A DNA stretch of 64,000 nt from a virus. Shown piece after piece: positions 1 to 14,986 of the stretch. Within the stretch, counting starts at the first letter, position 1, and each line of letters opens with the position of its first letter. Where the stretch lies: the IMG/VR virus record IMGVR_UViG_3300042463_000986, positions 1 through 64,000 of that record, one strand, 5' to 3'. The translations under genes were made by a program, and so were the position numbers. The notes beneath the pieces are model-generated. The model was not told the DNA's origin and ran no database searches. It saw nothing but the letters and a program-made list of their open reading frames with translations.

Positions 1-201
1 TTGCCAAGTGGCTTTTAACTTATTATCTGGATAAGCTATAAGAATTGTACTACGAGCAGGAACAAGATTTTTAAGTATTTCAATAGTGGTGCGACATTTA
101 CCAAATCTCATAGCAAGATCGAAATACCCTTTCTTATTCTTTTTTAGAAAACTAAGTCCTTTTGTTATAAATTTTTCTTGAATTTCATTTTGTTTGCTCA
201 T
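1..201 (-). CDS. Superfamily 2 helicase, N-terminal fragment (cut by window edge)
   Basis: The ATG is at 201 and the frame stays open to base 1, giving 67 codons of a longer protein that continues outside the window. The sequence contains FDLAMRFGKCRTT followed by a beta-strand ILIAYP. This resembles motif I (a Walker A variant, RFGKxR in place of GxGKT) and motif Ia of SF2 helicases and restriction-type translocases. Such enzymes couple ATP hydrolysis to DNA unwinding. The start codon overlaps the stop of the upstream gene (ATGA), so the two are translationally coupled. The family call rests on one motif and spacing only. Confidence 0.6.
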   Translation of the reverse strand, partial: MSKQNEIQEKFITKGLSFLKKNKKGYFDLAMRFGKCRTTIEILKNLVPARSTILIAYPDNKLKATWQ

Positions 202-443
202 ATGTAATTTATTATCTCACCATTTGAATTCATTAGTTTTCTAATAGAAAACTTTTCATCTAAAATTTGTGTAATTTTTTGATAAATATTGTTTATATCT
301 CCCCACATAGGTAGATATATAAAAAATTCATTGAATGATAAAAATGGACGATGTTTTACAGAATCAAATTTTTCCTTATACCATTCATATAAGATAGCAG
401 CATTATTTTGATTTCTGTAAGTTAAATAAAGTTCTCTGGTCAT
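198..443 (-). CDS. Hypothetical protein, 81 aa
   Basis: I do not recognise this small protein. It is rich in aromatic residues (LYLTYRN, LYEWYKEKF, FNEFFIYLPMW) and ends in a short basic stretch. It overlaps the helicase start by ATGA and its own ATG overlaps the upstream stop by ATGA, so it sits in a chain of coupled genes in the replication block. No signal peptide or membrane span is evident. Function unknown. Confidence 0.7.
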   Translation of the reverse strand: MTRELYLTYRNQNNAAILYEWYKEKFDSVKHRPFLSFNEFFIYLPMWGDINNIYQKITQILDEKFSIRKLMNSNGEIINYI

Positions 444-13507: not shown

Positions 13508-13531
13508 GTATTAAAACTAAAACTAACAAAG

Positions 13532-13618
13532 TTAGAGAGACAGGATTCGAACCTGTAAAATTCACCGTAGCTTGTTTAAGGCAACAGTATAGCGTCTAAC
13601 CAATTTCACCACTCTCTA
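13532..13618 (-). tRNA. Leucine-type tRNA-like element with a non-canonical anticodon arm
   Basis: The 7-bp acceptor (UAGAGAG / CUCUCUA), the leucine-like D arm (GUG...UUAGACGC) and a perfect T arm (ACAGG-UUCGAAU-CCUGU) are clear, with discriminator A. The length (87 nt) suits a class II leucine tRNA. The anticodon arm does not fold normally. The best stem is UUG/CAA around CCUUAAA, or UGUU/AACA around GCCUUA, and neither gives U33 plus a 5-bp stem. I therefore assign no anticodon. It may be a decayed tRNA or a tRNA mimic. Confidence 0.55.
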
Positions 13619-13697: not shown

Positions 13698-14090
13698 TTA
13701 AATTAAATTATTATTTAATATATGATCAAATGCTGCTGAATATGCTTCTTGTGGTGATTTATGTCCATTAAATGATTGATGTTTATTGTCATTATTCTGA
13801 ATATTGGCTGAATAAAATCTACCATCATGATTAATATACATTGTAACACCAACCCAAATACCGTAATTAATTCTTAAAAATTCCACAACTTGCCATTGTT
13901 GATATTTGGTAATTACAAGATTGCCACCAATCCCAATATCACTATCCAAATCTTCTAATCGCCAATCAGTCATATCAGTATATGAATCTTCAGTCATTTT
14001 AACCCAATATCTATCTGATTTAACAACCAATCCTTTTTCTTTAAGTAATTTAGCTTGTTCAAATGTTACGTAATTTGGTTTTATTTCCAT
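13698..14090 (-). CDS. Hypothetical protein, 130 aa
   Basis: The N-terminus (YVTFEQAKLLKEKG) and the tail (QSFNGHKSPQEAYSAAFDHIL) match a pattern seen in many phage and mobile-element proteins of unknown function. The N-terminal FxQAKxLKEKGF pattern and a downstream WQVxEFLR segment are usually found together. No active site is visible. It is flanked by tRNA-like elements on both sides, a common place for small accessory genes. Confidence 0.65.
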   Translation of the reverse strand: MEIKPNYVTFEQAKLLKEKGLVVKSDRYWVKMTEDSYTDMTDWRLEDLDSDIGIGGNLVITKYQQWQVVEFLRINYGIWVGVTMYINHDGRFYSANIQNNDNKHQSFNGHKSPQEAYSAAFDHILNNNLI

Positions 14091-14109: not shown

Positions 14110-14212
14110 CAGTCAGGACAGGATTCGAACCTGTATTATTTGTACACAATATTAAATACTTAGCTATGACTTCCCTAAATATTTAGCGTCTCACCAATTC
14201 CGCCACCTGACC
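14110..14212 (-). tRNA. tRNA-Leu-like gene with an enlarged anticodon arm (UAG candidate)
   Basis: Acceptor GGUCAGG / CCUGACU, D arm GCG...GAGACGC, a variable-arm hairpin and T arm ACAGG-UUCGAAU-CCUGU are all intact. Between the D arm and the variable arm lie 33 bases instead of about 18. If positions 27-31 are AAAUA and 39-43 are UAUUU, the loop begins UUUAGGG, giving anticodon UAG (leucine), with about 14 extra bases after it. Those extra bases extend the stem to 11 bp (UAAAUAUUUAG / CUAAGUAUUUA). Processing or function as an ordinary tRNA is uncertain. Confidence 0.6.
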
Positions 14213-14285: not shown

Positions 14286-14484
14286 ACTCAAGGCAGGGAT
14301 TTCACCTGCATGAATTATAACTGATGTTAGTTGGCACTTTTTAACAAGGACATGACTCATTATTTTCATCAGTTTTATTGGAATGTGTTAAGTGTCTGAT
14401 GTTTACCCAACTTGTATATCTTAACCTTTTCCCATTCCATTCTCACCGTCTTAGTTTAGCGTCTATACTTTTCGCCACTTGAGT
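14286..14484 (-). ncRNA. tRNA-like RNA with a 149-base insert
   Basis: The 5' strand ACUCAAG pairs with CUUGAGU, and a leucine-like D arm (GUGGCG...UAUAGACGC) follows. A T-arm hairpin GCAGG-UGAAAUC-CCUGC lies next to the 3' strand, but its loop departs from UUCRANY. About 149 bases fill the place of the anticodon and variable arms (normally 31-36). The insert contains AACUGAUG / CAUCAGUU (8 bp). I find no convincing group I intron core. It could be an interrupted tRNA or a tRNA-mimic RNA. Confidence 0.4.
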
Positions 14485-14597
14485 GTGTAAAAACAACTAA
14501 TGCCTTCTAAGAGATGCAATGATACACAAGTTATCTTTGGCTTAACCTTAGTTGTCCAACTTGATTTTAATGTCGACTTTGCAGTTAATCTAAACCA

Positions 14598-14667
14598 CTC
14601 ACATCTTAGACTGTGAGGTAACACATGTGCGAGGGTAGGCCTTTTGCGAAGGATTACGCACGTCCCT
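14598..14667. ncRNA. Structured RNA with a probable pseudoknot
   Basis: There is a hairpin CTCACA / TGTGAG (14598-14617). Next is a 7-bp helix ATGTGCG (14625-14631) / CGCACGT (14657-14663) enclosing CCTT / AAGG (14640-14652). AGGG (14632-14635), inside the helix loop, can pair with CCCT (14664-14667), just outside it, giving an H-type pseudoknot. The stretch 14485-14713 has no plausible gene. It may belong to the same RNA as the tRNA-like element next to it. The strand is not certain; minus fits the neighbours. Confidence 0.45.
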
Positions 14668-14713
14668 TGTTATGTCACTGTCTAGTATTAACCATTAGTT
14701 GTTTTAAAGCTTT

Positions 14714-14986
14714 TTACCAGTCTCCACCAGCTCCACCACCGCCTGTATCACCACCATCAAACCCACCAAATGAAGATGAATCACTACTATCAGATGATGA
14801 ACTGGTGTTAAATAATGAAAGAGTTGAAATTCCTATATCTATAATATCATTAACTATGTTCTCTTCTGTAGCACGCTCTTCTTTTTTTTCATAAGATAAT
14901 TTTTTATAATAAGGAAGATTATAATACTCTGTATCTGATATTACATTTTTTAGTGATTTGTCACTATAACTTTTTAATACATACAT
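14714..14986 (-). CDS. Hypothetical protein with Ser/Asp then Gly-rich tail, 90 aa
   Basis: The first 60 residues are charged and helical. The last 30 are low complexity: a Ser/Asp run followed by FGGFDGGDTGGGGAGGDW. A terminal Gly-rich segment ending in Trp is seen in several bacterial envelope proteins, but no membrane span or signal peptide is present here. Function unknown. Confidence 0.6.
   Translation of the reverse strand: MYVLKSYSDKSLKNVISDTEYYNLPYYKKLSYEKKEERATEENIVNDIIDIGISTLSLFNTSSSSDSSDSSSFGGFDGGDTGGGGAGGDW

Follow-up and report, generated by a model that had tools for sequence, protein, structure and literature searches.

Structured RNAs of Phage tRNA Islands

Large structured RNAs encoded beside phage tRNAs are known, but to our knowledge their function is not. 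GOLLD (RF02032), at 800 nt or more, is a structured phage RNA that lies beside tRNA arrays and consists of a constant and a variable region, and T4 encodes two small stable RNAs of ~120-140 nt, rnaC and rnaD (species 1 and 2), within its tRNA cluster. ROOL is a phage RNA found near tRNA islands whose function is unknown, and both GOLLD and ROOL assemble into RNA-only cages (PMC12286853).

The RNA described here was found in a stretch of 64,000 nt (the window) that is part of a 112,070-base IMG/VR virus record. The window encodes a terminase matching PHROG 6681 and a portal matching PHROG 6547. Related terminases occur in deposited phages that include Cellulophaga phages, crAss-like gut phages, and others, and the window is read as coming from a crAss-like phage on the basis of these matches. 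The initial annotation had proposed a structured RNA beside tRNA-like elements, in a setting like that of GOLLD and ROOL but matching neither, and this much is borne out, with compensatory changes in homologues. At both gathering and relaxed thresholds, Rfam 15 returns only tRNAs and weak chance matches from the region and nothing for the RNA, including with the ROOL model; the GOLLD model, which gives control matches on two contigs (L118 and L130), has no match in the window. The member RNAs of L096, L154, and L177 match neither GOLLD nor ROOL in Rfam at E values up to 1. The RNA resembles ROOL in habitat but is far smaller, and at ~216 nt it differs from GOLLD in size, sequence, and fold. 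Homology to the T4 RNAs was not found either: the best score of our covariance model (R1, see below) across T4 69.5-74.5 kb is 10.8 bits, at neither rnaC nor rnaD. Because its habitat is like that of GOLLD, ROOL, and the T4 stable RNAs whereas its sequence and fold are unlike theirs, the RNA is filed among the structured RNAs of phage tRNA islands, with an exchangeable arm as its new feature.

Other identities were considered and rejected. The RNA is not a 5' domain of GOLLD, as the two occupy separate positions on L118 and L130, and it is not a group I intron (Rfam Intron_gpI has no match in the region and a control match on L130). Several relatives have a tmRNA, but at other positions. Protein coding is contradicted by the presence of only short ORFs and by the replacement of a whole block inside a region that is 98% conserved. 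Neither the RNA nor the tRNA-Leu-like class discussed below is described in the literature covered, although an earlier description is possible, many subscription papers and bioRxiv lying outside that coverage.

Architecture of the Minus-Strand RNA

The RNA region is flanked by leftward genes at 13698-14090 and 14714-14986, and both Rfam tRNA matches near the RNA are on the minus strand; that the minus strand is also the coding strand of the structured RNA is well supported. The whole RNA spans 216 nt (14490-14705, minus strand, as are all of its features given here) and is supported by its R1 score (197 bits, with the window RNA being a seed of the model), its homologues, covariation, and an MFE z of -2.1. 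It is closed by P1, a helix of 13 bp formed by the 5' strand AAAACAACTAATG (14693-14705) and the 3' strand CATTAGTTGTTTT (14490-14502), in which 6 of the 9 inner pairs are double-changed in homologues; the unit also has a junction. P2 pairs GTTAAT-A-CTAGAC (14680-14692) with GTTTAG-ATTAAC (14584-14595), and both sides have changed in 5 of its 12 pairs. The exchangeable arm, P2a (14618-14678), has a base (GTGACA/TGTTAC) that is conserved as pairs (4 of 5 double-changed) and an interior that is replaced between relatives. The hairpin P2b (CTCACA-GTCTAAGA-TGTGAG, 14598-14617) has 3 of 6 pairs double-changed, and a second variable domain, P3 (14515-14583), has the putative base TGCAA/TTGCA.

The loop of P2b contains the invariant word TCTAAGA (14604-14610), which is complementary to another invariant word, TCTTAGA (14506-14512), in the linker upstream of the P1 3' strand. 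The two are complementary in 17/17 aligned members, including members recruited with a pattern that sets the loop word but not the linker word and members recruited with one that sets the linker word but not the loop word, and can form a conserved pseudoknot; as these columns are invariant, covariation is silent there. The predicted fold is well supported.

A Family with Covarying Helices

R1 was built from three sequences and combined with two distinct sequence patterns, which together recruited ~17 further contigs (E 1e-20 to 1e-12) and place the RNA in about 20 IMG/VR contigs overall. Members range from roughly 180 to 290 nt, compact enough to probe and solve. The architecture is kept, with compensatory changes, in the more divergent relative L079. 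An alignment of 17 trimmed sequences has 96.9% of its cells paired. Of 39 pairs, 18 are double-changed; shuffling gives 8.7 +- 1.8 and sliding the register gives 3-7. The rows were trimmed by hand and are mutually related, and three of them had served to draw the initial structure. Some positions in P2b, in the P2 3' strand, or in the linker were pre-set by the recruiting patterns (for pattern 1, in P2b and the P2 3' strand). The count is lowered by L118 and L079, whose rows are shifted against the others along part of P1. P1, P2, the base of P2a, and P2b thus covary around invariant complementary words, and the assignment of the minus-strand RNA to a predicted family of its own is well supported. 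A second model, R2, was limited to the trimmed core; lacking the variable domains, it scored members below R1, and R1 was used.

The family was sought more widely by several routes. Scans of IMG/VR for a conserved 18-mer and for the arm of the window returned near relatives and L152 only. In 50,697 phage records searched by BLASTN, neither the window region nor two members gave a match to the RNA, and a pattern-based scan covering 84,980 genomes of bacteria and archaea gave one chance match, which on inspection was not a member. Three long phage records to which tRNA-like matches led, Tenacibaculum phage pT24 among them, have no R1 match above noise.

Exchange of the P2a Arm

The arm differs between close relatives and is shared between distant ones. 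The relative L007 (contig 3300017917_001220) aligns near-perfectly with the window over 14490-14710 except for a wholly different block at ~14620-14675: the cores are 98% and P3 97% identical, whereas the arms are 55% identical, which is chance level (shuffle maximum 58%). L180 and L133 likewise have a core of 97%, a P3 of 98%, and an arm at chance, and in L106 and L096 both outer domains are at chance beside a core of 96%. The window and L152 show another combination, with a core of 86%, an arm of 88%, and a P3 at chance. Over 47 arm nucleotides L097 and L164 are identical, whereas the remainder of L164 differs, and the arm of L118 reappears in a different RNA of L190 (83% over 84 nt). Between distant phages, arms are kept at 82-100% (L079/L095, L097/L164, and window/L152). 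Gradual drift as the source of the arm differences is contradicted by chance-level arms beside 98% cores and by kept arms in distant relatives; the two observations together indicate block replacement. P3, too, is replaced as a block between relatives. That P2a is an exchangeable cassette is well supported by these sequence comparisons.

A phage-encoded non-coding RNA serving as a stable, trans-acting scaffold with interchangeable payloads is the reading we favor, with about an even chance. The RNA would be cut from long tRNA-array transcripts, as its tRNA neighbors are, and its rigid core would bind one conserved partner. The interchangeable arm would be the payload for a target that varies, the most plausible candidates being host factors and defence components, and an arm directed against such a target would in turn be exchanged between phages, probably by recombination at the arm base. 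With a constant core separable from an exchangeable arm, the question of function becomes testable by arm swaps.

Outer helices are free to vary in many structured RNAs, and the arms could instead be neutral, with the core doing the work (for instance, by binding to the ribosome or to a polymerase factor) and the arms being decoration swapped by illegitimate recombination. The ordinary stability of the arm folds agrees with neutrality: their mean z is -0.4, so on average they are no better folded than shuffles. Neutral arms would have no need to be kept whole at 82-100% in distant phages, nor would one be expected to recur in another RNA, and we regard neutrality as possible but somewhat unlikely.

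The Plus-Strand Pseudoknot at 14598-14667

The initial annotation had read the plus strand of this same region as an H-type pseudoknot (14625-14667) preceded by a 6-bp hairpin, the whole possibly belonging to one RNA of 400-500 nt that includes a tRNA-like insert. Its description of the letters is correct: all of the words named are present on the plus strand, namely CTCACA/TGTGAG (14598-14603/14612-14617), ATGTGCG/CGCACGT (14625-14631/14657-14663), AGGG (14632-14635) and CCCT (14664-14667), and CCTT/AAGG (14640-14643/14649-14652). The stretch was rightly called GC-rich (0.51 at 14598-14667 compared with 0.30 across 13-16 kb) and without a plausible gene, as it holds only short chance ORFs. 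The preceding hairpin is real and conserved, being P2b of the minus-strand RNA.

The pseudoknot itself fares differently. The plus-strand fold is no better than that of shuffles (z -0.83, with 39/200 shuffles as good), so the fold alone is no evidence even though the letters are correct, and the conserved RNA, the adjacent genes, and the tRNA-like elements are all on the minus strand. Read on the minus strand, the 7-bp stem acquires a C-A mismatch that leaves 5 contiguous pairs, and an H-type pseudoknot there would probably be sterically strained by linkers of 2 and 0 nt. The 4-bp complementarity of AGGG and CCCT easily arises by chance. The words fall in the interior of the variable arm P2a, are missing in L007 despite flanks that are 98% identical, and are shared with L152 only. 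Seven aligned differences separate the arms of the window and L152, none of them within AGGG/CCCT or GTGCG/CGCAC; the conservation of these words is a slight hint that the arm's own helices may matter in this arm type, and it comes without any compensatory change. Covariation thus speaks for the minus-strand RNA and not for the proposed pseudoknot, whose standing as a conserved element is already contradicted by the relatives compared.

The larger RNA does not hold either, as the 216-nt unit is self-contained, closing at 14490/14705 and stopping short of the tRNA-like element. The RNA and the tRNA-like elements are separate units, because elsewhere (L096, L144, L152, L154, and others) the RNA adjoins genes or ordinary tRNAs. 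Taken as a whole, a plus-strand pseudoknot within a 400-500-nt RNA is highly improbable.

Genomic Habitat and a BoxA-Like Motif

CrAss-like phages account for 6/20 member records, and members also occur in phages with a different, unrelated terminase type; among the loci retrieved by way of the crAss-like terminase, the RNA is present only in L079 and L013 (the L007 contig). Several members (L097, L095, L185, L152, and L130) lie within same-strand arrays of 9-25 tRNAs, the location of a structured RNA of phage tRNA islands, and in many cases only a few bases separate the RNA from the end of a tRNA. Each member contig has one clear R1 match; L116 has in addition a second copy (96-249, plus strand) that is weaker and shorter and from which the P2a arm is nearly missing. 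In L116, L119, L168, L180, and L190, a second repeated element, GTGTTGTT(C/T)(C/T)CTTGAG(A/C)AAGGAAT..., follows 3' of the RNA and is apparently structured; it is in L190 that an RNA close by has the arm module of the L118 member. Phage-encoded tmRNA genes occur on crAss-like and related contigs (L036, L048, L050, L051, L054, L164, L168, and L180).

GOLLD is also encoded by L118 and L130, on the same strand as the RNA and at a separate locus. Given this shared setting, and given that GOLLD and ROOL build RNA-only cages (PMC12286853), the RNA could by analogy be homo-oligomeric, with the invariant complementary words pairing between molecules. Its sequence and fold are unrelated to those of the cage-forming RNAs, it is much smaller, and no self-complementary kissing loop is seen, which makes an oligomer of this kind quite improbable.

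A boxA-like motif, AGTTCTTT(G/A)A, is found within ~20 nt upstream of P1 in 6/20 members (three of them closely related), against a background of 1 per 80 kb. We take it to resemble the boxA of rRNA antitermination in Bacteroidota. The motif, as AGTTCTTTGA(A/C)(A/T)AT, also lies ~450 nt upstream of both GOLLD matches (L118:7818 and L130:10103, minus strand) and before tRNAs in L185 (3791 and 4377, plus strand). Its position just upstream of the RNA, the single copy of the RNA per genome, and the need of long non-coding arrays for antitermination would suit a cis-acting antitermination or processing element of a long non-coding transcript, like the HK022 put RNA or a boxA leader. Such an element would not be expected to exchange its arm in blocks or to be placed within arrays as well as at their start. 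The motif is missing in most members, and its presence before GOLLD and tRNAs makes it a general mark of stable-RNA units; a cis-acting role for the RNA is accordingly judged unlikely. The distribution of the motif suggests that the stable-RNA units of these phages may undergo rRNA-style antitermination.

tRNA-Leu-Like Elements with Hypervariable Inserts

Three tRNA-like elements lie near the RNA on the minus strand; the neighbor elements share the acceptor, D-arm, and T-arm of tRNA-Leu (RF00005), whereas the RNA itself is not tRNA-like. Element A (14286-14484) is tRNA-Leu-like by its sequence, with an acceptor ACTCAAG/CTTGAGT, a T-arm GCAGG-TGAAATC-CCTGC, and a long insert, and has no match in Rfam or ARAGORN. 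Its shell is diverged, and in L007 the RNA is followed, at the contig end, by an element that has the same 5' half but another insert. Element B (14110-14212), also tRNA-Leu-like, has the acceptor stem, D-arm, and T-arm (Rfam tRNA, 39.8 bits) but no canonical anticodon arm with a 7-nt loop; an irregular insert replaces it, and ARAGORN makes no call. Element C (13531-13618) is called tRNA-Ser(act) by ARAGORN and has a Leu-like D-arm.

Element B represents a class with a constant shell, AGTCAGGTGGCGGAATTGGTAGACGC ... ACAGGTTCGAATCCTGTCCTGACT, and an insert instead of the anticodon arm. A scan of IMG/VR with its 3' 24-mer returned at least 119 stretches and gave at least 177 distinct elements in at least 119 loci (for example, L116, L119, L095, L185, L217, and L228); constancy of the 3' end is built into such a scan, whereas that of the conserved D-arm half is not. 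Among the matches listed, a locus has up to 8 distinct elements, ARAGORN rejects 141/183, a canonical anticodon arm opens the insert in 10/112, and the inserts are 47.4% identical compared with 46.9% for shuffles. This suggests that part of the degenerate phage tRNAs, whether annotated or missed, are a scaffolded hypervariable RNA class. The class may prove more surprising than the RNA itself, and also more widespread. Tentatively, and as a rather doubtful extension of the scaffold reading, the core RNA and the tRNA-Leu-like shell could together form an RNA display system, in which constant scaffolds in stable-RNA arrays carry exchangeable payloads, the payloads acting in trans on functions of the host or of rivals and being recombined between unrelated phages.

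The deposited Tenacibaculum phage pT24 (L328, record 190743-193768), in which no copy of the RNA was found, has genes annotated as tRNA-Undet; with its recorded Tenacibaculum host, pT24 may be of use as a laboratory model of the tRNA-like elements.
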